Part shown: positions 2,085-55,029 of the stretch, piece after piece
Layout of the letters: every line of letters starts with the position of its first letter
Numbering within the stretch: the stretch's first letter is position 1
Assembly (NCBI RefSeq): GCF_000341285.1
Contig: NW_005178414.1
Location: forward strand, 25,228-89,227
Length of the DNA stretch: 64,000 nucleotides
Origin: Galdieria sulphuraria
Lineage: Eukaryota > Rhodophyta > Bangiophyceae > Galdieriales > Galdieriaceae
Direction: 5' to 3'
The notes under the pieces: model-generated
What the model was told of the DNA's origin: nothing
Database searches by the model: none
The model's input: only the letters and a program-made list of their open reading frames with translations
Program-made: the position numbers and the translations under genes

Positions 2085-4530
2085 ATGACTGCCAATGTTT
2101 TTGAAAACGAAGTACTTACTATGTTACGTAGTTCCTTCCGCAACTTGATCGAAGCTATAGACCTTGATATGATTTTGGATATGGAAGAGTGTTCGTTAGA
2201 CTTTCGTTTATGGCCTGAAAACGAGCTTTTGGAAACTTCTCGTTATGATATGGACAACGAAAGTAAAAGAGCGCTGGATACAGTTGTCAAGGAATTGTAA
2301 GTATAAGTCTGTTTCTGGTACTACTCTACTTAGATAAAGTTAGACTATCAAGTAGAAGAGTTGTACAGACCTTATTGACTTATGCTCTGGATCCTCCTCC
2401 ACCCAAGTGTTCACCTCAAGACAATAGAGTGAAAAAGTATCCCAAACTATCCGTTCAAATTCTAGTTTCTGTACCATCCGTTTTGAAAGTTTTGGCTGAA
2501 GATGAAGACTTGATGGCGAGTTTCTTTGCACGTCTACTTGGAGGTGGTGTTCCTGAAAACTCATCTCCAGAAGCCGCTTCCTATTCTTCCGTAGGTAACG
2601 GTACAGGCTCCGACGAAGAATGTTATGTTTCTTCAGAGTCTTCGGATGTTTCTCCAAAGTTGAGAGAGAAAAAGGATGGCACCAACGAAAAACTTGTATC
2701 CCAAACCAAACACGCCTTAACTTTATCATCACCTCCTTGGTTGGATGATGAACGCTCTAACCACTTTAACAAAATATTAGAAGCACTATTGGAATATCAA
2801 AAAGGCACAGCCTTATTGACGTTTGTAAGAAACTATGCATTTTCTAGGCTTCCTTATTGTGAAGATATGGATGAGCCTACTACTCTATTACATGCTTTAG
2901 TGAGAGGAATCCATTTGCGTTCTATTACAGAGTTGTTATTGAAAATGTTATCGACGGGGATTTCTCTTCGTTTATTTTCTTATTCATATGCTGGAGTCGA
3001 AGCATATGAAGATGAAAGAGAAGCCAGTAACTTGGATGAAGAATCAACTTGGAGTAGAGCTTATCTTCGTTTTCCTTTTGAAGAGGAAGTGGAACCTGAA
3101 GCAACAACATATAGTGTCGATAGTGATGTCGAAGAAGAAGAAAGTCAAGTGCTACAAGTTGGTTCTACAAACCCATCCTCCAAAAGAGAACAAACTTTAG
3201 AATGGCTATTTCAAAGTGATAATTGTATTCGACTAGTTCGCATTCTATTGCATCGATTGTATGTTGCTTTGTTACAAGATTTGCCTATCCATGAAAATAG
3301 TATAGAAAATAGTACAAATGTAACGGAACCTGGGAATGCTGTAGAAGTATTGCGTGCCATTAGTCGTGTATTAAGTCGTTTGGCTATCGTCAATTTACGT
3401 CTAACCGATGAAATGGACTCTTCTCAAGAAGTTGCTATACTTCATGACAAATCCAAAGGAGATTTATCCAGTGCATCTTCTTCTCAACCTATGGATGGAA
3501 AGCCACTCTCATCTTTGGAAAAAAAGCAAGATTATCGTAAATTGGAACCGGAAGCACATGTCATCGTAGATCATATGCTTCATATGTTGTACAAAGCTTA
3601 TGATCGATTATTTATGGAATGGGATTCCTCCAAGCGCATGGAATTCATAGCCCGACATTCCCAATTCTTAGCAGGAGTTCATTTTCTATTCGGTGCTGCA
3701 ACCAAAGTGTTGGCAGCTTTCTTGGATATTCGATTGGAATTGAATAACTGGGGAGAGCTTCCTCCTCTTATATCCGTATTGTTGAAATATGTAGAGTTTG
3801 CTGTGAATATGTTACAAATAGCACCTCAACAGCCATTGTTATATTTGGGCTCTTTATCGGAGAATCGAATCACCACATCTTGGGATCGTCCATCATCGTC
3901 TTGGTTAGGTTTACATCGATTGCAATTGGTCAAGTTTTTTACTGCTCTAGTTGGAGTTCCCCATATCGATGTACAAAGTGCTCTCGTACAAGCAGGTGAG
4001 TAGAGAATGGTTCAGTTGCCCATACTTGATATGAATTTTCAATAGAAGTGATAGCTCCCATCATTCAGTTGCTTTTCGACTATCCCAATCACAATGTGTT
4101 ACATTCCGAAATAGAACGTCTAGTCATTGCCATCATTCGAGGAAATACGGACTATGAACTGCGTCAGAATTTATTGGATGTTTTGGTTCCAAAAATATAT
4201 CAAGGTATTTCATATTTGTTGTAGAAAGTAAAAAACTTATCATGGCTTCTAGTGGCGGTAGATAGAAGAGAAGGAAAGATTGCTCCTTGGTTGTCCTATA
4301 TGGGACATGTCAAACGATTGGCAGAAGAATTGATATCTGCTTCTGCTACACAACCGAGTTTATGTCAAATGTTGAAGAGAAATAGTTGGTGGTCCACCTT
4401 TATGACGGTCAATAACAACAACAATTATAATAATATGTCTACCATAGTTGTTGGTCAATCCAAAGAAACCTCAAGTTTTGTAGATGAAGAAAGAAACGAA
4501 ACTTTGGATTCGTCATCTTCTTTGGTCTAA
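2085..4530 (+). CDS. SAPS-domain protein (PP6/Sit4 phosphatase regulatory subunit)
   Basis: SAPS proteins are regulatory subunits of the PP6/Sit4 protein phosphatase. Exons are 2085-2296, 2344-3995, 4046-4204 and 4253-4530 (introns 47, 50 and 48 bp), giving 766 residues. Family-like features are VLKVLAEDEDLMASFFARLL near residue 115, VIAPIIQLLFDYPNHNVLH in the exon 3 region, and APWLSYMGHVKRLAEEL near the C-terminus (SAPS proteins have a matching GYMGHL block there). Two low-complexity acidic or Ser-rich insertions lie around residues 140-180 and 310-340. The C-terminal tail is Asn/Ser-rich. The first splice (2296/2344) has several possible acceptors; the one chosen keeps the best SAPS match. 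The family call is from recognised blocks only. Confidence 0.75.
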
Positions 4531-4698
4531 CCAAACACAATATACGATGAAAAGAATAACTATGAAATATACAGGAAGAGATGCATGTTGTTGTGTGAAT
4601 AGTAAGAGAGTTATAACTCTCCATGGTGGGAATAATAGGAAAATAATGGTTGATGAACGAGTCAAAGGACAATATCATTGTTTGTTTTTATTCGCATC

Positions 4699-4718
4699 AT
4701 ATATATATATATATATAT
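4699..4718. repeat. (AT)10 microsatellite
   Basis: A perfect AT dinucleotide run in the 216-bp gap between two convergent genes (SAPS stop at 4530, F-box protein stop at 4747). It has no visible role beyond the shared 3' flank. Confidence 0.9.
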
Positions 4719-4746
4719 GAAACAACCAATTCAGAGAAAACGTTGA

Positions 4747-6313
4747 TTAAGAAAGAGGAGGATAAGAACGTTGCACTATACCAACAAGTCCTTTACCACT
4801 ATACTGGAGATAATGGCTTGAATAATCACAAGGAGGAATAAATATGATTCTTCGTTCTCCTTCCAAGGCAAGACCAGCTCTAATGAGTTTGACAATAATT
4901 AGCTTCCAAACAAAACAATACCCTACTGCACACTTACCTATTCCGATGAAGAAGATATTCAATAAATGCAAAATAACCTTCTTCATCTTCTCGAGTTTCA
5001 GGTTCAAAATAGAAACGTGCTGCATCAGGTAACACAAACGTTTCCAAATGAGATATATTGAATCGTCGTTCCACAATCAAAGTCTGTCCAAGACCATAAG
5101 GAATCAAGGGATTGCCTCCGAATTGATGTGCACGCAAATTGCAGATAAACCTACCAGTCTTCTGAAGACGGCAACAATAATACGGCATCTGATTCAAACG
5201 AGGGAAAAGCAACATCCATCTTCTGCTATAATTCTCCTCCAAAGGCATGTCGCCAGTCACCAAGGCCCAAGCACTCTCATCCCATTCAAGTGAACGCCAA
5301 CGACTCAAACATTGCTCTTTCCAAAGACTTTCATCGCTACAAAACTCGTACCACTTCTTGCACACACGACGAGCCCTTCCAAGATCATCCGCTTCGAGAA
5401 AACGAAGAATAAGTCTAACGATATCATCAGGTAAAAAGGAGAAAGGTTGTAAACATAAAAAACTCGAACAAGTGGAGTCCCAATGCTTCTTTAAACACAC
5501 ACAGCTGTCACTTTCTGTACAAACAGAACCACTTTCACGCAATTGACTTTGATTCTGACGAGCATAAGAAGAAGATACAACTAATAACGTTCTCAGACGA
5601 TCTCTAATAAAACTACAAGAGCCAGTTGCTAATGAAGGCTTCGAATCCACACATGCAACGATCCCTTGCAATTCTGATAAAATAAAAGACACAGAATCGG
5701 GTGACTCTACAAACTGGGTTTCATCCAACTCTTGAAAACTTTCATCTTCCCTATCTTCACAAAGCTCCCGTTGATGTAAAAAGCGGTCAAGGGATAACTG
5801 TTCAGAATACGGATGACTTAATCTTTGGGCTTGATATGAAAGGTCACAGCTTTCTAAATCCATCTTCTCTCTTGAAGTGCAATCTACGTCATTCACTAGG
5901 AATTCAATGAGTAAAGAAGTTTAGGATATTTAAAAAAACCTACCGTCGATAGGTGAGTGTTCGACTACGCCACTTTGTGAAATGTTTCCAAGGGTCAAGG
6001 GGGGGTATTGTGAACTCGTCGCACAATCTCTCACTCTCCTTTCCGGCGCTGTAAGTCCTTCTTCATCCAAATTACTCTCACAACACTCGTTCAAACAAGG
6101 CTGAGCTTCTTGTAACTGTTCTAGTGTCGACACTTGATTTTCAGGTATGCGTCGAAAATGGCGAAAGAATAGAGGACGTTGCGGCACACGTCTGGAGCTT
6201 TGCCTTCGGTGTGGAAAACAAACTCTAGGGAAAATAGCTTCCAAAGCTACTCTATCAGCACAACCTCTCAACGGAGTACCCTCCCCGTAGGAGGTGTTCT
6301 GCTCCTTCTGCAT
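4747..6313 (-). CDS. F-box protein with SPOC-like C-terminal domain
   Basis: Exons on the minus strand are 6313-5944, 5895-4938 and 4879-4747 (introns 48 and 58 bp), giving 486 residues. The N-terminal 270 residues are polar and probably disordered. An F-box follows at about 276-320 (FLPDDIVRLILRFLEADDLG, then RRVCKKWYEFCSDESLWKEQ). F-boxes bind Skp1 in SCF ubiquitin ligases. The last 130 residues contain LRAHQFGGNP, TLIVERRFNISHLETFV, FIEYLLHRNRAGLAL and RIIFIPPCDYSSHYL in that order. The order and spacing resemble the SPOC fold of Spen/SHARP and PHF3 family proteins (G/R-rich strand, LPP/FPP signature, YL...AG). The last exon completes this domain, so the splice is functionally supported. 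The F-box call is firm; the SPOC call is pattern recognition. Confidence 0.8.
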
Positions 6314-7422
6314 GAAAAATCCCCTCTAGCGGCTTAATTTCTCGAAACGACTACTCTACTTGGACAACTCACTCGGCCTCAATGAGGGTCCCTCGAAATC
6401 TAAAAGTTTTACATGAAATCAGCACAGGTCATTTGTATTAGTTTCGTAAAGGAAACTGACCTAAATCATTTTTCAAAGTTCTGCTTTAAACCATTCAAAA
6501 CGGTTCTCAAATAAACAGGGATAAATGAAGATTGCTTGGAATTTAAAAATATGTTTCAAAAACAAATCAATAAAACTGTAAACAAACTCGAACTTTTTAT
6601 CACGAAGACTACAATAGGTTCAGTGGTTCTCTCAAAAAAAAGATTGAAGTAGAGAAAAAAACAGCACTTTACACAATACCTTATAAAGCTGTTTCCCTTC
6701 TTTTGGGGTTGCTTTAGCATCTTAACGCAAAAACAAAAACAGACAAAAAATAATTTGCAATATCTCTTTAAATATTGCATTCAACTTGGTAAAAAGCGTT
6801 TTCAAGATCGCAAGATAGCAAATGAGTTTGAAGTGAAATATCTCGTGTTTCTCAATAAAGAAAACTAGAAGACTGTCCGGACAGACAAGCACATCGTAAA
6901 TAAAAAATAAATTAGAAAACAAGGTCAAAAAGAAAATGAAAAGAGACTTTAAAAATTCCGAAAAAAAATTAATTGCATAAAGAAATACTGAGCAGTTCAA
7001 TTTTGAAACACATAGTTTCGATATTGCGATTTCATACCTAGTCGATGTTCGTAATTGGACATTTTCTTTGTTGAAAAATCATAAAAATCCTTCAATTAGT
7101 TAATTTTCCGAGCTCGGAACAAATAAACTTTTAATTAATTCTTTTGATATTGAATAAGAAAGGTATTTCTTTAGAAATGGTATCTGAAATTATCGAAAAT
7201 TATTCATTATCTTTAATTTGTATTGAAAAATACATGACTTCTTTAAATAGGTTTTGAGTAGCATGAAATTTTTGCCTCTTAACTTATTTTTCTCTTGAAA
7301 AATAAATGCTTCTTGTAGCTTCTTAATTTATGACAACTTTTAACGTAGTTCAATCTTTAGACTGATGATTTCAGTGTTTTGCGACAAATTTATATTTTAG
7401 CATATAATTTTTCCTGCCCAGA
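6314..7422. other. Gene-free AT-rich intergenic region
   Basis: About 1.1 kb between two divergently transcribed genes (F-box protein on minus, ankyrin-BTB on plus). Only short, low-complexity Phe/Lys-rich frames occur, with no splice-supported coding. Two perfect palindromes stand out: CTGTCCGGACAG at 6873-6884 and TTCCGAGCTCGGAA at 7106-7119. It probably holds both promoters. I see no RNA gene in it. Confidence 0.5.
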
Positions 7423-45037: not shown

Positions 45038-46955
45038 TTAAGAAGCTGTTATCTCTTTGCCCTTTGTTTCGTCATTTGATTTTCTTATATCGTCTTCTAT
45101 TTGTCCTAAGCGCGAAAACATATTACCGAATAGTCTGCGATCCTTTGCATCTTGTTCAGCCTTCACTTGGCGAAGTTCACGCATCTTCTTCTTCAGCGCT
45201 ACATTGGAAGGATCTAGCTCTAAAGCTCGCTTTAGATCTTTCTCTGCCAGTAACACTTCAGAACTGCGTAGATATGCAGAAGCTCTTCTAAATAATGCCT
45301 ATAAAGAAAACAAATGAACAATCAGAAATACAAAAACCTTGCGATTGACCAACCTTCACATTCACTGAATCTATTTCCAGTGCTTTATTGCATTGCTTCA
45401 GCACGCCATTCGAATTGCAGAATTTCTCTTCACAAGCTGCAAGATTCAAGTAGGTCTGCAAAAGAATCGACTTGCCTTGTTGTTTCTGTTCTGCATTGAG
45501 ATCTGACTTGTTCTTAACATCAAACTCCAAATTATTTACCACTTTTTCATATTTCCTAAAAGAAAATTTCGATATCCATTCCAATATAAAGTACACAATT
45601 ACTTACTTCTTAGCAAGCTTATATCTGCCGGATTTGAACAATTCATTGCCTTTGTCCTTTGTACGCAATGCATTTTCTATCTTTTCTTCCTTTGATAAAT
45701 TCCAAGAGTCTTTGGCTCTTTCAAATGAAACCAGTTCCAATTCAACTATCACTGTTGAGTCTTTTGAAACACCTTCAGGAGGTACTATTCCGGCTTCCTT
45801 AAAGGCATAATTGGGTGCAACAGTCAAAACTGCCTTTTCGCCTTTTTTCATAGTTTCTAAAGCCAAGTCAACTCCTTCGATAACGACACCATCTCCTACA
45901 ATGACTTCCCAATTGGATTTCTCTTCGATTATCTTTTGAGTATTGCAATCCTTCATAATCATATTCACAATGGCTTTGGTATCATCCGAAGGTTTTTCCC
46001 AACCTTCTCCTTCTTTTACCATCTTCTTGACAACTCCACCATCTTTAGAGACATCTTCGACTTTATTCCATCGAATCAACTCCAACTCATATTCCACACA
46101 ATCTATATCATGAGGAATTTGAAAAGGGAGACCGGCTACTCTAATGCGTTCATCTCTACATACAAGACGAAGCTTTGCTGATTTTTTCATATCTTTTATG
46201 GCCTATATCAAATGGACTGTTTCAATATCTTGTACATTGTGGTCCATAACAACTCGATACCTTTTCCAAAAACTCAGGGACTTGGTTTTCTCCCATGACA
46301 AAAGACAACTCCTTCTCTTCCCAGAGAACTCGATTGTCTTTGGTCTTTGCCAATACGTTCACAAATACCTCAAACTTATCCGTTGGGCGTTCCCAGCCTG
46401 TTCCTTCTTCCAAAATATACTTCATAACCTTGCCATCTCCAAACATATCCTTCACACTCGTCCAGTCTACAAGTTCCATTTCAAATACCAGAGTTGCGTT
46501 TTCTTTATAAGAAAACTTCTATTCAACCAATAGTTGCATCGCACTTGAACAACAAACTCACCTGGTATTTTAGGAGGCATTCCGTTTTCCCCATATCCAT
46601 ATTCAGGCTTGATCGTAACTTTTGCCTTTTCACCTTTTTTCATAGTAGCCACAGCTACATCCCAACCCTTTATCACCTGACCGCTGCCAAGTGTAAACTT
46701 AAGGGGCTCTCCTCTATCATAACTGTTATCGAAGACATCTTCTGAGCCTAGAAGCTTCCCAATATAGTTTACTCGTACTTCGTCTCCCTTTTCTGGTCGC
46801 TTGTAACCTTCACCTTGTTTCAAGATAACCTTTTCTACTCCTCCATCACCAGTTAAGTCTCCTTCATATTTGTTACCAACTGATTCATTATCTGACAAGT
46901 CGTCGTCTTCTAGCATAGGAGGACTGGTATCCATCAACTCATCATCCGACATCAT
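45038..46955 (-). CDS. FKBP-type peptidyl-prolyl isomerase with TPR domain (FKBP62/65-like)
   Basis: Hsp90-binding immunophilin. Minus-strand exons are 46955-46562, 46502-46261, 46202-45607, 45555-45354 and 45298-45038 (introns 51-59 bp), giving 564 residues. The first FKBP domain is intact (VRVNYIGKLL, VFDNSYDRGEPLKFTLGSGQ, VIKGWDVAVATMKKGEKAKV, YGYGENGMPPKIPG). Two further FKBP-like domains are diverged (VMKYILEEGTGWERPTDKFE; VIEGVDLALETMKKGEKAVL), lacking much of the active-site pocket. A TPR region follows (GNELFKSGRYKLAKKYEKVV; ALFRRASAYLRSSEVLLAEK), consistent with a Hsp90-tail clamp. Plant ROF1/FKBP62 has the same plan. Its stop lies 30 bases from the convergent methyltransferase stop. 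Confidence 0.92.
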
Positions 46956-47105
46956 CTTCAATTGATTTAGACTAATGTGAAGACTTTATCAATAATCAGC
47001 CGCATGAATCATTAGGTTTTCAAAACTTTTATCGAAGTTTCCAGAAGAACTCATGGCGCCCAAACATTTTCTCATTCTTCCTACTGATCAATACTTTTAT
47101 TTATA

Positions 47106-47720
47106 TTATTGTTTCCAACGGTTCCCACAATGGTGACAAGTTACAAACGTAGTCATGGGTTCATCCGCACTACGTGTCTGCATCTGAAAAAAAGAGCACT
47201 TGCGAAGTCCACACTTTCTGCACTGAAACTCTTCCGAAAAAGTTTGAGTATCAACACTTTTCTTTGACTCGCGAATACTTTCTTTTCTCAGTTGTTCGCG
47301 CTCCTTTTTAAGTTCCGGGTTGGCCAACTCATGGGGTGTCATGACTACAAAGTCCTTGGGAAGTATCGTTCTCGACAAAACAGCTTCCCTTAAACTCGCG
47401 TTTTTGGCGTCTTTCAAGTTACGGTACAAACTTCGAAATCTTTCTTGGTAGTCTTTCCCCGTTTCTTTATCACAGCTCTTGAATAGTTCTTCTTCTATTT
47501 CTTCGACCGTCACGTGGATAGGTTTTTGTTTTTCTTGTTTCCTTTCTTCAGTTGTTGTAAGAACTTGGTAAAATAGTGTGCGCACTTTGTCACGCATGGG
47601 TATGCCTGTGATACGAAACTTGAACGGTTTGCCATCTCGTTTTTCTTGTGAGTTGTTTTCTTGTTGATTTGCTGTTTCACGTTTTCTTTTATTTCCTGTT
47701 TCAGTACAAGGCGCATCCAT
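47106..47720 (-). CDS. TFIIS-like transcription elongation factor, lacking the N-terminal domain
   Basis: TFIIS rescues backtracked RNA polymerase II by stimulating RNA cleavage. A single exon of 204 residues. The central domain includes MRDKVRTLFYQVLTTTEERK, then a helix bundle and the linker VVMTPHELANPELKKEREQL. The C-terminal zinc ribbon is FQCRKCGLRKCSFFQMQTRS followed by ADEPMTTFVTCHHCGNRWKQ. The acidic DE pair of the catalytic hairpin (SADEPM) and four cysteines are present. The N-terminal LW domain (about 80-100 residues in yeast and human) is missing; only a 30-residue basic leader precedes the core. I found no upstream exon for it. Confidence 0.85.
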   Translation of the reverse strand: MDAPCTETGNKRKRETANQQENNSQEKRDGKPFKFRITGIPMRDKVRTLFYQVLTTTEERKQEKQKPIHVTVEEIEEELFKSCDKETGKDYQERFRSLYRNLKDAKNASLREAVLSRTILPKDFVVMTPHELANPELKKEREQLRKESIRESKKSVDTQTFSEEFQCRKCGLRKCSFFQMQTRSADEPMTTFVTCHHCGNRWKQ

Positions 47721-48170
47721 TCATTCAATTGAAGGGGTTTTAACTCATCCGAGGATGGTTGAATCGTCTCTTATGATAATGTTCATCTGATTTTGTACAA
47801 ATTTTCTTAGAGACGACATAAAGACAATGTTGATACATATGAAAATGAGTTTGCTTGGACAGTTGATTCGGAGAAGTTTCTCTTTTTTGAGTTTATATAC
47901 TAGAATTGGAAAGATACCCACCATTCCTATCTTCATGTCTTTTACATTCACCGTTTGCAACCTAATCATTATTCATATCAACATATTTATGATTTCTTAG
48001 CACCCATTCAGGAATAAACGCGGTTGGAGACAAGTTATCTTCGAAAATCAATACTAGAAGAGTATAAAAAGTTTATACAAAAAGCGTTTGGTAGAACGTG
48101 TCTTTCTTTCCATAACTAAACAACAACTCATTGATAACCTGATTTTCCATATATGCTCATCTATTGGATA
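47721..48170. other. Intergenic region with one doubtful small ORF
   Basis: About 450 bases between TFIIS and the formin. A plus-strand frame at 47827-48000 (57 codons, basic start then hydrophobic, IFMSFTFTVCNLIIIHINIF) could encode a mini membrane protein, but nothing else supports it. No RNA gene was recognised. Confidence 0.3.
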
Positions 48171-51100
48171 CTAGTCACAACCGAAAATGAAGGCATAGAT
48201 GAAAGAGATGAAAATTGTACTGATAATTGGTGGTGGTGGAGGAGGAGGAGGAGGAGAAGGTGGTGTTGTCATTGGAAGAGTTTCCAAACTCTTGTAAACA
48301 TTGTGAACTTCTAGCCTTTCGTGAACTTGTTGTGGCTGAGTTTTGACTCTAGCAAATTGGATACCAGTCCTTTGAAGTACTTGCAACTGTTCAGTTTCAT
48401 CCCAAGCCCTTTGAAAGTCAGAAACAAATCGATATAAATGCTGAAAGACGGAATTGTAACAAGCAGCTGTGTCAACAGAAGGCAAATACAGAATAACATC
48501 CTCCATGTTTTCCTGCCAAGTATGAATCATCGTTCTCAAGTTTTCCATTGTCCTTTGAGCTTTCTCATACCAAGGCATCATCATTTCTCCAAATGGCATG
48601 GAACACGATTCTTCAAGGCTTCGACAGATCTCCGTATGCATCTGTTGCATATCTATAAGAAGCATTAGTATGATTTTCATTCAAAATGAAATGGAGTCCA
48701 ACCATGTTCTAAACCTTCAAATTGTGCCAATACATTGTCACTGTCCAAAAATGCACACAAACGTAGAGAGGGTAGTTCATCTGCAAATGATAATACCTGT
48801 GGCATATTTCTTTTCAAAATGCTAATCATGTAATTGAGTAACGTGACGCGGGAGAAACGGGAAGAACGGACTCCATTAAAAATGTTGATATCTTCAATGG
48901 AATAGCCTTTCGCATTTCCTTGTGGATGGTGTGCATTGAGAACATTTCCAATGGACAAGCTCAACGAGACGATTTCTTTCAAACCATTGCTTTGACAAAT
49001 TTCTTTGGCACCTTGCATCAGTGCTTCCAAATCATGCAATACTTTGTCACTCGTTTCTTGAAACATGAGCTTAAAGAGGATACTTTGGACTTTCTGACTA
49101 CATCGGGGAACTTCACACAAGGTAAGAAGGAATCTTTCTGGAGGTGAAACTGTTGTAAGATCTACATTCTTGGCTTTATCCAAAAGCTGCTGTTGAACAT
49201 CCGAGGACGGGACAAGACTTGATAAGAGAGGTAAAAATTCGTCCATCTTAGTGACAGAAGAGCAATCGCCATTCAAAATAAGTTCTTTCACCTTCTCACC
49301 GCCAAGGTTACGAAAGCGTCCCATTAGAATCTCCAAATTACGAGCATATCTGTCATCAAGGAAAGTTACTTGTTGCACGGCTTCGCCATAAATACCTGAA
49401 CTTTGTTGAACAGAAAAATTCGTCTGTTCCAATTGCAATTGGAATATCGCTTTTATTTCACTCTCATCAACCTTCCAAGTGATCGCTTGTGTCTCCTGCC
49501 AAATAGAGTCTTTGAGACGATTCATTGGAATCTTATGCCAATGAATTCTTCTGGTTGTAACGTCATTTCTGGACTGAACATTGCTCACTTCAAGTTCAAG
49601 ACTCTTTTCTTCCAAAGGAACTATCACTCTTGATGGCCGCATGCCTGGCATACTGTGAATCTCTATAGCTTGTTTCTTGCCACCTGAAGGCAAGCTGGGT
49701 TCACCTAATGAGTGAAGAGGCTTTTGTCTCTTGTTTACCTCTGTTGTTTCGTTTGAATGATGTAATATTACATTGCTTTCATCCTTGTCAGTACTGATAT
49801 TGTTAGGTTCCTGAAACGGCTGTATTGTCTCAGGTGACTGTGTGGAATGATCGATACATGTTGTGTTCAGATCTTCCATTTGAAGTGTAACAGCTTCCAT
49901 TATGTTCTGTTTCGGAGCATAGTCACAGGTAACTTCCACTTGTTTATCATCTTTAAATTTCTTGAATATTTTCTTCATTCCATGAAACTTTAGCAACTGC
50001 AATTTGTTCGAAGATAAATCACAAGATGGAAATGAGTTCAACCTTGAACCAATGATATGGATCGCTCGAAATGCTCTTATTGTCATGACCAGTTCTTCTC
50101 GTTCCATATTACTTTTTGTGGAGATATGAAAAACTTTGTCGTTTTTGAAAGCAATAAGGAAACACTTTGCTGTTTCGTCGTTGATAGACTTGGCTTCTTG
50201 ATCAATTCTCACCCAATTCAACTGCGATAATGAATATTTACCAATCGCCTTCCGAAAATGATATCGGTTATGAATCGTGATTCTTTCACTGGTAACTTTG
50301 AAAAGGAAACATTGTTGCTGACTTAGTCGACGGCTAGTGTTTATATTATTTTCAAAGTCTCCAATGATCACGACATCTACCCAATACTCTCCTACTTCTC
50401 GAATTATGCTCTGTTCCAATCTCGACCTCATATTTTCTGGTAAAACAACAGGTGACGCAAGTTCAAGAAAGATGGATTTTGACTCGAGAGTATCTGGATT
50501 GCAATTGCTTGAAGATTGACAAGAAACTTTTGCAAGAAGCTGCTGACCTATGTCGTCTGCTGTTACTACCCTCCGATTTTGATTTGCAGTTGAAATAGGT
50601 TCGATGTTGTCGTCTGAAGATAGAGGAAGCTTTCTGTACCACTGTATTTTTATCTAACAGGCTCCATCATAAAAAAACTTTATAGTGAAATTTTACAACT
50701 ACTTACGAAATTTCTGTCCCATTGAATCCACCCACGTAGACGTACTTCAGTGCCTATTTTCCCCGATCCAATTATCTCTAAGCCTTCTAGAACTCCGTCC
50801 AAATACTCTCGCTGACCTGATTCAGCAGCTTCAAGCGATCTTCGAATCTGTGCCACTAGCTTTCGACTTTGAAATGCTCTCCACGTAGCTTAATGCCTGT
50901 TTCAGCATATGTTTTCGGAAGCAATAATTGGCATTCTCACCTTGGATTCGACATGCAGCTTGTTCTCTAAGGAAAATTGTGTCAAAACTCTAAGCAATTG
51001 CAACAGAGCATGCATACCTGTTTACGTTAATTGTGAACATTTCAAATGTCTCATTGAGTTGATTCATCATTCTAGCTTCTTCTTCTTGAAGTTGAAGATA

Positions 51101-52109
51101 CCTGCTCGACTCTTCTTTAGTAAAAACAATTTTCCATATTCAAGGTATCAATTACCTTTTTGTTCGAAGAAGAATATTCCACCAAGCACTACAGGTCTCC
51201 CTGCTTTGAAATAATATATCAAATGAACAATTGTTCGCTGTAACTTTGATCATTGTGGACTTGTGTCTTTTTAACTTATCAGTTTTTGTCATTTTCATAA
51301 TTTACTGCCATACCTTTTTAAGAAAAATTTTGAGAGAGAAATCATCTCATCTGGATTTGTATGAGAAGATGTCTCCGTTTCAAAGATGCATAGTAAATGT
51401 TGTTTCAATTGAATGTAGCGTTTCAAATAAGAGGATTGCTTGGGATATTTTACAGAAACCATAGTAGTCTTTATGTGTTGAGAGGCGTCTTCCATCAGGT
51501 ACTTGGCAACATACAATCTAATCAAATGGTTCAAAAAGGAAACAAAAGGTACGCAATTTAACCTTTTCACCTTCTTCTTACACCATTTAGAAACTTTTCT
51601 TGTTGACTAACAGAAGATATGTCCCTATCGTCCAAATAAAATTCCTCGGAATGCAAGTACTCCTTTTGAATGATTTTTGTCGTTGTCGTATTCATTGTTT
51701 CCTTTTTCGTCTGCTTCATTCTCCTCGATGCATCGCTTATTTCTTCTCCAAACAGCAGATCATACACGCTGTCTTGTTCCAATGCTTGTTCTACTTGTTT
51801 TCTTGTAACAAGTCGATCTTCCCAAATCAACTATCATTAGTTTCCATTTAGATATTGAACGCTAGAAATATTTATAATGCATGACTAACACAAGGTATTT
51901 GTACTTTGCCATGTAAACTTTCCAAATCTTCTCTTGCCTTTCTATTGGAGAACACGTCCACTTTTTCATAAGTTGACTTATTTGTATCCAACCATTGCTA
52001 CATGTCTTCAGTAGAGGTTGAAGATTGATGCACAACTCACCATAATTTTTTGTCCTAGAAGAAATGTAGAGGGAATAGCGCCACTGGAAGAATAATACAA
52101 AACCTTCAT
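48171..52109 (-). CDS. Formin (FH2) with N-terminal thioredoxin-like fold, IQ motif and C-terminal poly-proline tail
   Basis: Minus-strand exons are 52109-52041, 51997-51890, 51830-51571, 51517-51314, 51203-51156, 51104-51018, 50966-50941, 50888-50707, 50653-48703 and 48652-48171, giving 1138 residues. Residues 1-85 (MKVLYYSSSGAIPSTFLLGQ, YEKVDVFSNRKAREDLESLH, QIPCLIWEDRL) resemble the SH3BGR/glutaredoxin-like fold. An IQ motif (CRIQATWRAFQSRKLVAQI) lies near 270. A PH-like stretch at about 420-520 has CFLFKVTSERITIHNRYHFR. FH2 spans about 700-1060 (IHWHKIPMNRLKDSIWQETQ, DKVLHDLEALMQGAKEICQS, LSLSIGNVLNAHHPQGNAKG). FH2 domains nucleate actin filaments. A run of nine prolines and a hydrophobic end (IISTIFISFIYAFIF) follow FH2. 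All phases match; the first four exons rest on shorter motifs. Confidence 0.75.
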
Positions 52110-52756
52110 TCCTCCACTCTCTTTTTCAAAACACAAAATGAAATGAATCTCTTTGTTTTTGTTGAGATCAAAAAGTAAAGAAGAAAAAATAAAAATTTTG
52201 GCGCAATAAAAATGGCGCAATTTCTTTCTTTTTGAAAGATATGGATCAGTTTTGTGTGCAAGAGAAAGGCAATAAAGTTGTCTGGTTAGATGTTTTGGAC
52301 CTTGTCCTATAACTAGACCAAGTTGAATTTATCTGCAGATAGTGATACTTAGATTCCTGGAGAGTGCTGATAAGGCTATGTCTAGTCGGCAAAACCCCTA
52401 TGTAAAGTTATTCCTAAAATAGGATGAGACCCTTTGAAAGTCTTCATCCAACTTTATAATGTATAAACAGTTTAAGCTGCACAAAAAATCTCAGACGATT
52501 GTACTCCTTATTCCTTAGAATTCAACACCAGGGGAAATTTCCTTTGAAGGATTTACATACAAAATATCTCTTTAAAGCCTTTCAATCAGCTTCATGAAGA
52601 GAGGATGAAACGTTCAATGTCTAGTTGACTTGGATGTTGTGCCTCGATCAAGGGTCTCTATACAGTTACCAGAAGAGACTTGGACAAGAACCAAATAGGC
52701 ATTCATTCAAAATGAGAAAATGTATAGCCAATCAATTTTAACAGTCAGTCAGCGAT
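52110..52756. other. Intergenic region, nothing recognised
   Basis: About 650 bases upstream of the formin and downstream of the NTF2-like gene, both on the minus strand. No convincing frame, repeat or RNA was found. It likely holds the formin promoter. Confidence 0.4.
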
Positions 52757-54106
52757 TTATTCATTAGACAACCACATTTTTACAATTTCATTTCTTTCAA
52801 CATTCCAAGTTTCCTGGTGCCGAACTATCTTTCCTTCCAGATCTATTGTCATAATGTTTCTGCTCAAATATTGTACTCTTCCACCCAAAAAACGCCCTTT
52901 TCCATATATACGATATACTGCTATAACTGTCTCCGGATTAGGATGAACGACACTCATAATATTACAGTCCATATACTGGAACAACAGTCTAGTTAATATA
53001 CGAATACCTCGATGAACTTGTTGAACTGCTGAAATTCCGTATGCGACAACAAAAGGGTTCTCCAACTCGACAAATTCCGAGTAAATGTCTCCCAGATCCA
53101 CTGGTGAGGAGAATAGCCTTGGAGCCTGTTCCTTTGACCAATTGATAATTTTGTTTACACGCGAATGATACCACTCTGATCGCTGAATATAGGTTTTCTT
53201 CCGAAGAAAGGCACTAAATAAATTCTTTTGAAGTACTGCGATATCCAGACTACCTCCCTTAACGGTCTTTTCCATATTGCTAGAGGAAGAATTTTCGCAA
53301 CTTCCATTGCTATGAAATAAAGTTTTGCTTTCATTTGATAGGTTGCTCACTGTCTTGGGTATGTTTGAAAGGTCGGCAATGGACTCCGACCAACGTTCTT
53401 GCCAACCCATTATATTCCCATTAGAGTCTAAATGAATACGAAGAAATACAACTTGTTGCACTTTTCTATTGTTAACTGCCAAACATAAATGAAATCTTGC
53501 CACCAGTTGACCTTCTTCAGGAGACAAATACTCCATATCGTCCAAACTTAAAAACTCAATCTTTAACCAATTTTTGAAAAATGAGAAGGAGGAAATAAAT
53601 AGTAAAAACAGTAGCTTCGGGATATGAAGAACCACTGGGAAGCCCAATCGTTCCAACACTGGGTGAGATAGTGTCACATTTCTGGACAGTTTGTGAGATA
53701 ATGCTGTACCAACCCTTAGGGTGTGTGGCAAAAAGTAAAAGTCCCGTAAAATATTCTCCAACTGCCCTTTTAAAAGTTGTTTTTGGGAGTAAACTACCGA
53801 ATATTGCACCGTTTCTCCTTCTGTTTGTTGTTCTTCAGCCTGAGTTGTTTGTCTCCAAAGCTTTTTGGTGTTGTCCCCCAAAATATTTGTCAAATGAGTC
53901 ATCCAAGTGCTCAACTTTTCGAGAACGCACTTGAACGAGACTTTTTCTTGTCGGCGAAAGTTTTCCTTCCTTTTGTGACAACGCAACAAAGGACAACATT
54001 TGGACGCTTTTGAAGTTCCAATACCCTCTGGATAAGTTACAAGACCCTCCTTTCTATGACGTATGGCTACGAAAGGTCTTGTTATAGACACAAATGTGCA
54101 GCACAT
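52757..54106 (-). CDS. Probable plastid protein with two NTF2/DUF2358-like domains
   Basis: A single exon of 449 residues. The first 65 residues are basic and Cys/Ser-rich, like a targeting peptide. A hydrophobic patch (VLHIPKLLFLLFISSFSFF) lies near residue 165. Two halves each end in a strand-Trp pattern typical of SnoaL/NTF2-like DUF2358 proteins of plants and cyanobacteria: FLRIHLDSNGNIMGWQERWS and SRNIMTIDLEGKIVRHQETW. The second is preceded by FLGGRVQYL. The function of the family is not established. The fold call is pattern-based. The first ATG in frame was used; upstream codons are TTG-initiated only. Confidence 0.55.
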   Translation of the reverse strand: MCCTFVSITRPFVAIRHRKEGLVTYPEGIGTSKASKCCPLLRCHKRKENFRRQEKVSFKCVLEKLSTWMTHLTNILGDNTKKLWRQTTQAEEQQTEGETVQYSVVYSQKQLLKGQLENILRDFYFLPHTLRVGTALSHKLSRNVTLSHPVLERLGFPVVLHIPKLLFLLFISSFSFFKNWLKIEFLSLDDMEYLSPEEGQLVARFHLCLAVNNRKVQQVVFLRIHLDSNGNIMGWQERWSESIADLSNIPKTVSNLSNESKTLFHSNGSCENSSSSNMEKTVKGGSLDIAVLQKNLFSAFLRKKTYIQRSEWYHSRVNKIINWSKEQAPRLFSSPVDLGDIYSEFVELENPFVVAYGISAVQQVHRGIRILTRLLFQYMDCNIMSVVHPNPETVIAVYRIYGKGRFLGGRVQYLSRNIMTIDLEGKIVRHQETWNVERNEIVKMWLSNE

Positions 54107-54349
54107 GCACACTTGAAACAAACAAGTCTCACGCCACCACAATGGCTACCGACGAATGAATATGGAGGAATCGGATAATCTCATTCTCATCTTGTCTGGT
54201 TGCTTCGAGACGGATAATGATTGGATGGAATCCGTGATGGGGAGATCCACGTAGAAAAAATGGATGCGACGACTTGTCTGCCATTCCATATTTGTGGATA
54301 AAGTAGAAAGCAAGCGATGCACATAGAAGGGAGTCATTTGTAAAGAGAC

Positions 54350-55029
54350 ATGTTGAGCATACAAGGTAATGCTTGTATCTCTATTGATATTTATGCTGAC
54401 TGTTTGATGTGTAGTTTTGCAAGTCTGGAGTAGTAAGAGTATTGAGTTGGAGAACCTCAAGTTGGCTACCCAATTTGAAATGGCAGTTGAAGAAGCACCT
54501 TTATATAGAAATCTTTTAGCTTCTCATTCAAGAAAAAAGAAAGGACAAAAGAATAAGGATTGTAATAAGCAAAGGTTGATGCCAAATCATTTCATATCTA
54601 CGTAAGTTGCACTGGACTTCTTCCACTGCTTTGATTGACAAGTCTAGTGCAATACCAGATATCTACTATGTTATGAAACTATATAAAACTGCAGCTTGGA
54701 GAAGAAACACTCTAGTTGGGAATGTCATTCTTCCTATGGATGATTTAAACAGCTTCAAGGACAATGGACCAGTTTGGTGTAATATGATACACTGGAACAG
54801 AAAATTGAGTTCTGTTGAAACAACAGGTCGAGTTCTTCTTAGAATAGTATCAACGCCTACCCTTGGGATATTCAACGGCGATTGTGGAAATATTTCCTAT
54901 TCAGATACTCAATATTTGCTGTTTGGAAATGTGAATCAGCCTTGTGTCAAGTCCAATGATCCTCATACGGAATTGAATCATAAGAACAATATTGTTCGTG
55001 AACAAGTCACTGCACCTTATTTCGAATAG
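54350..55029 (+). CDS. Small protein with C2-like fold, unknown function
   Basis: Exons are 54350-54365, 54415-54601 and 54648-55029 (introns 49 and 46 bp), giving 194 residues. Exon 1 encodes only five codons plus one base (MLSIQ). Across the junctions the product reads LSIQVLQVWSSKSIELENLK, ISTAIPDIYYVMKLYKTAAW, then GNVILPMDDLNSFKDNGPVW and TTGRVLLRIVSTPTLG. The pattern (L-x-V-x-V start, a V/I-P strand and W...G-x-V/L-L-x-I end) resembles a C2 domain. The Ca-binding Asp set is not obvious. No family was assigned. Confidence 0.5.

Follow-up and report, generated by a model that had tools for sequence, protein, structure and literature searches.

In nearly all formins, the profilin-binding FH1 region stands ahead of FH2, as stated in a review that also mentions, citing Goodson et al. 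2021, that some red-algal formins may break this rule (PMC11194305), and a departure of red-algal formins from the FH1 order is probably already in print. Regarding the other end of these proteins, formin tails following FH2 are described as changing nucleation and processivity (PMC10797183). Outside the formins, two proteins are of interest for the present work: the plant actin-bundling protein SCAB1, whose fused Ig-PH is described as forming an atypical phosphoinositide-binding site (PMC10730221), and AIR9, which associates with microtubules, contains A9 domains, and plays a part in cytokinesis (PMC3488599).

Here, we analysed a formin gene located in a stretch of 64,000 nucleotides of the Galdieria sulphuraria genome (hereafter, the window). 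Its only run of at least five prolines lies behind FH2, and its N-terminal half contains PH-like and Ig-like regions. In the literature searched, we found no earlier description of the C-terminal tract of this orthologue group, of the Ig-PH resemblance to SCAB and AIR9, or of the frame problem in the tail, and likewise no precedent for a delivery of profilin-actin from behind FH2.

Gene Structure and Orthologues

Assembly of the gene model resulted in ten exons on the minus strand (Table 1). The nine introns, ranging from 43 to 59 nt, all possess GT-AG borders, and the exon phases are consistent, so that the limits and the exon number given by the first-pass annotation were reproduced with an open frame of 1158 aa. 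Intron 3 begins at position 51570, and intron 7 finishes at 50889. An Rfam scan of window positions 46000-54500 resulted in no match.

Table 1. Features of the formin locus, with positions as in the window.
Feature	Position	Strand	Evidence
Whole formin gene, 10 exons, 1158 aa + stop	48171..52109	-	Gene model, phases, GT-AG introns, collinear orthologues
Exons 1-5	52109-52041, 51997-51890, 51830-51571, 51517-51314, 51266-51156	-	
Exons 6-10	51101-51018, 50966-50941, 50888-50707, 50653-48703, 48652-48171	-	
Glutaredoxin/SH3BGR-like region, residues 1-85, without active-site CxxC (exons 1-3)	51753..52109, introns included	-	PF00462, PF04908
First PH-like region, residues about 146-251 (exons 4-5)	51156..51517	-	PF00169, below cut-off
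IQ motif, residues 281-297 (exon 7 and start of exon 8)	50860..50962, intron 50889-50940 inside	-	PF00612
Ig-like region, residues 318-420, nearest SCAB-Ig / AIR9 A9 domains	50438..50799, intron 50654-50706 inside	-	Pfam, below cut-off
Second PH-like region, residues 421-555	50033..50437	-	PF00169 in P0001
FH2 domain, residues 713-1079	48411..49561, intron 48653-48702 inside	-	PF02181, E 1.6e-57
Nine-proline run, residues 1132-1140, after FH2	48228..48254	-	Position common to 4/4 proteins; 9/9 invariant
Hydrophobic C-terminal reading, residues 1141-1158 + stop, not common to relatives	48171..48227	-	Frames, hydropathy, 1/18 invariant

A protein search revealed three orthologues. P0001 from Galdieria partita has 1158 aa and is 73% identical to the window formin; P0002, with 19 member sequences, has 1157 aa and 62% identity, and P0003, which carries the label G. 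phlegrea Soos, has 1133 aa and 39% identity. They span 96-97% of the window formin and display the same layout. Aligned with P0001 and P0002, the window formin is gap-free at all nine exon joints, while P0003 revealed a one-residue insertion near the joint preceding the IQ motif. Since the three orthologues share the layout and run through all joints, the window formin is, judged by these alignments, a real and single gene. Two separate transcripts, split between exons 3 and 9, had been named as the alternative and are ruled out by the continuity of the orthologues across all nine joints. P0002 is probably a spliced transcript, because its longest contig measures 3,833 nt for a reading of 1157 aa, leaving little room for nine introns.

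Adjoining the formin gene, an open frame of 462 aa (window 52757-54145, minus strand) matched DUF2358 with an E value of 7.5e-6, over the cut-off. Also on the minus strand, a 204-aa frame at 47106-47720 displayed a TFIIS central domain and a zinc ribbon, the usual N-terminal domain not being seen in that frame, and is adjoined by an FKBP-type isomerase at 46467-46985.

Modules of the N-Terminal Half

The N-terminus had been described as SH3BGR/glutaredoxin-like, with redox input suggested. The glutaredoxin side of this description was weakly supported by a match of PF00462 over residues 5-67, which reached 23.8 bits (E 5.1e-5) with residues 1-91 alone, just over the cut-off of 22.9, and 18.9 bits in the whole protein; the SH3BGR family (PF04908) also matched weakly, at E 0.039. 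In contrast to glutaredoxins, all four formins lack the active-site CxxC/CxxS, at whose position SSSGAIPST or TSSGAIPST was found instead. Since no active-site cysteine pair is present in any of them, redox input is unlikely, and redox sensing by the N-terminus was discarded on the same ground.

Instead of the single PH-like region proposed before, the analysis points to two such regions with an Ig-like region between them. For the first, PF00169 matched the whole window protein with E 1.5e-4 and its best stretch at 169-236, below the cut-off; the region alone gave E 8.9e-4 for the window copy and no PH match for P0003. Across the four proteins, 43 of its 106 residues were invariant. The second region showed its best stretch for PF00169 at 460-540 in P0001. 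Taken alone, it gave E 0.011 in P0001 and 0.1 in the window copy, while the corresponding regions of P0002 and P0003 resulted in no PH match. Based on these profile matches, the formin probably harbors two PH-like regions.

The IQ motif stood up in part: an IQ-like sequence is present and was retained in P0001 (100% identical to the window copy) and P0002 (82%), but its PF00612 match (E 0.0058) stayed below the cut-off, and the motif was lost in P0003 (12%). The Ca/calmodulin input suggested along with it is therefore possible, given the two orthologues that kept the motif and a calmodulin gene in the genome (contig C44, 65-79% identical exon by exon).

For the Ig-like region, SCAB-Ig and IG_AIR9 were the only Pfam families listed in the four proteins, the former in all four (E 0.0037-0.17) and the latter in two (E 0.0019 and 0.22); none of these matches reached the cut-off. 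The best scores were 17.7 of 27.6 bits required for SCAB-Ig and 18.4 of 27.5 for IG_AIR9, and a consensus of the region scored no higher than the individual members. With SCAB1 and AIR9, the formin thus shares an Ig-like region followed by a PH-like one, but its Ig match lies below the cut-offs, and neither the other domains of SCAB nor the A9 array were listed by Pfam. A protein search with the Ig-PH region retrieved P0001 and P0002 alone among 874 candidates, P0003 not being among the matches, and a profile search of the PDB resulted in no hits at E up to 10. Scanning the source genome itself for SCAB-Ig, SCAB-PH, and IG_AIR9 gave no match; the controls were silent too, and the domain is split by an intron. 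AlphaFold2 yielded a mean pLDDT of 31.6 for P0001 with three sequences and of 38.0 for the second PH-like stretch with four, both values marking poor models. We consider the resemblance of the Ig-PH region to SCAB and AIR9, as seen in these profile scores, a lead.

FH2 Domain and Comparison with Known Formin Classes

The FH2 domain claimed in the first-pass annotation was recovered by Pfam over profile positions 9-372 of 372 (Table 1); its identity is certain, and its sequence is that of a normal FH2. Solved FH2 chains matching it included those of DAAM1, diaphanous homolog 1, FMNL3, and INF2, among others, and the FH2 domains of these four can be aligned with that of the window formin, the key Ile being kept. 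In the profile alignment, I790 stands opposite the Ile of NLSIFLG in diaphanous homolog 1 and is invariant in the window formin and its three orthologues, while R944, likewise invariant, stands opposite the Lys of DTK, so that the charge is kept. We take this Ile and Lys to be the actin-contacting residues I845 and K994 of mDia1.

Apart from FH2, the window formin differs from the formin classes compared here. The Pfam scan extended to E 5, with filters dropping most matches above about 0.1, and within this range it listed no GBD/FH3 match of the kind found in Diaphanous-type and canonical formins, and neither the PTEN match of plant class II nor the RhoGAP-like match of plant class III formins. 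Unlike the transmembrane plant class I formins, the protein has no N-terminal transmembrane-like stretch, the best 19-residue hydropathy outside the tail being 0.87. What it has in common with plant classes I-III is the FH2 domain and possibly the theme of membrane targeting by the N-terminal half. Among known formins, red-algal ones lacking an N-terminal FH1 also stand close to the window formin (Goodson et al. 2021, cited in PMC11194305). A profile search with the three orthologues, in which the 7994 candidates sharing most words were scored, retrieved these and one dinoflagellate formin.

Altogether, four FH2 genes, including the window formin, were found in the source genome. One of the other three, C7 (about 2100-6675, plus strand), revealed a PTEN C2 domain match in its spliced N-terminal half (E 3.6e-4; 20.7 bits, below the cut-off of 27.1), followed by proline runs and FH2, a layout resembling plant class II in a red alga. 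Rhodophyta are given as having neither PTEN nor class II formins in Table 2 of PMC2386819, for which Cyanidioschyzon merolae was the only one analysed. A second paralogue, C56 (4062-6061, plus strand), displayed a charged N-terminus that by eye looks like a coiled coil; its proline run is located just before a gap of 20 N and the FH2 matches, and part of the gene may be missing from the assembly.

Proline Tract behind FH2

For comparison of the domain order, FH2 and all runs of at least five prolines were mapped in 18 proteins, i.e., the window formin, its three orthologues, and 14 other formins. The tract of nine prolines noticed after FH2 at first reading was confirmed in the window formin and turned out to be common to all three orthologues. 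None of the four proteins carried such a run before FH2, and the sole run in each (P9-P10) was located 46-57 residues C-terminal to FH2. Canonical formins, in contrast, display the FH1-type run ahead of FH2. Among the 14 other formins, which are hits of the searches run and no survey of formins, 13 had runs before FH2 and none had one after it, P0009 being the lone member without any.

The same order was not found in the paralogues. C7 possesses two P13 runs before FH2. In C56, a single P10 run apparently precedes the FH2 of that gene, while C1 has a proline-containing stretch before FH2, with no run of five or more. Since a run of at least five prolines after FH2 was detected in none of these three loci, the reversed order is, as far as the sequences tell, a property of one orthologue group and not of the genome.

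Regarding its conservation, the tract was invariant at nine of nine positions across the four proteins, compared to 4 of 52 in the preceding linker and 1 of 18 in the following tail. The alignment anchors itself on the proline run, so that the value of nine of nine is slightly overstated; the presence of the run in all four proteins does not depend on the alignment.

We propose, at an even chance of being right, that this formin of the Galdieria lineage is placed by its N-terminal half and uses the C-terminal tract as a short replacement of FH1. The PH and Ig-PH regions would bring the protein to a phosphoinositide-bearing membrane or to the division site, and the IQ motif may add an input by calmodulin or a light chain. 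The FH2 dimer would nucleate filaments and hold actin barbed ends, while the C-terminal tract would bind profilin-actin and supply it from the tail for nucleation or elongation. Potential partners are encoded in the genome, which contains actin-family genes and two profilin genes; the products of the latter start with MSWQ and carry a later Trp, residues that we take to be the ligand-binding aromatic pattern.

The main rival to profilin delivery is that the tract serves as a docking site for adaptors of the SH3, WW, or EVH1 type, or for profilin purely for localisation, with elongation proceeding without delivery of profilin-actin. Such docking would be in line with a conserved tract whose linker to FH2 is not conserved, and also with the presence of only one tract, compared to two or more runs in 11 of the 14 other formins. 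Runs of P9-P10 are, however, a classic profilin ligand, and the aromatic pattern presumed for the profilins of the genome fits such binding, so that we regard adaptor docking as possible but on the unlikely side.

The proline run might also be neutral low complexity in a formin that has no FH1 at all. Short tandem arrays of CCN codons are able to expand, a proline run can be retained as mere low complexity, and FH1-less formins such as Dictyostelium ForC exist; moreover, the adjoining linker and tail evolve freely. Against this, at least nine prolines were found at this place in all four proteins down to an overall identity of 39%, which makes a neutral run improbable.

C-Terminal Tail

Following the proline run, the assembled frame of the window formin ends with IISTIFISFIYAFIFGCD, a hydrophobic stretch for which a function as tail anchor had been suggested. 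Its GRAVY value of 1.94 (best 15-residue hydropathy window 2.43) compares with 0.01 in P0001, 0.54 in P0002, and -0.51 in P0003, so that a hydrophobic tail is absent from all three orthologues. Tail-anchored proteins are defined by a stable C-terminal hydrophobic segment, and such a segment was found in the assembled frame of the window formin alone.

Reading the same DNA in an alternative frame resulted in LSVQFSSLSSMPSFSVVTSIQ followed by a stop, and this reading resembled the C-terminus of P0002. Its end, SSMPSFSVVTSIQ-stop, corresponds to SSMPSLSVMTSVN-end in P0002; aligned, SSMPSFSVVTSI stands over SSMPSLSVMTSV, and both finish one residue later. The alternative frame scored 45 against the P0002 tail, compared to a shuffled mean of 21.7, and none of 2000 shuffles scored as high, whereas the assembled frame scored 11 at a shuffled mean of 11.3. 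Against P0001 (p 0.12) and P0003 (p 0.80), the alternative frame was non-significant. At its very start, in turn, the assembled tail is similar over four residues to the beginning of the tail of P0003 (IIST/ILST, p 0.016). As judged from these alignments, the simplest reading would be a small insertion or deletion between the IIST stretch and the P0002-like stretch. Relative to P0002, the frame change sits before SSMPS; one base gained or lost among the four consecutive T at 48214-48211 could, for example, account for it. The change would be either a sequence error or a private mutation of the strain, with no conserved anchor resulting either way. Gaps of 20 N occur elsewhere in the assembly and suggest scaffolding, although they do not tell the technology used. 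An intron from GT at 48220 to AG at 48171, recognized by eye and leaving a protein ending in PIIISNR, was considered as well; it is made less likely by the coding match between the alternative frame and P0002.

A formin whose C-terminus ties actin nucleation to a membrane, perhaps in the source species alone, is thus very improbable: the assembled frame does end strongly hydrophobic and its start resembles that of P0003, but no orthologue has a hydrophobic tail, and it is the other frame that aligns with the C-terminus of P0002. Contact with the membrane via the N-terminal PH and Ig-PH regions is more plausible than via the C-terminus, and dropping the tail-anchor claim averts a false lead.

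Significance for Galdieria and for Formins

In Galdieria partita, four actin genes are reported, diploid cells needing ACT3 for cytokinesis and haploid cells needing ACT2 for motility, while the single myosin of Galdieria is dispensable for cytokinesis (PMC13353863). Since these actins are needed and the myosin is not for cytokinesis, the Galdieria formins are natural candidates for the builders of the actin structures used in cytokinesis and motility. Beyond this organism, models of elongation build on a geometry in which FH1 precedes FH2. A natural formin whose sole tract follows FH2 would allow one to test directly whether the side of the tract and its distance matter for delivery.
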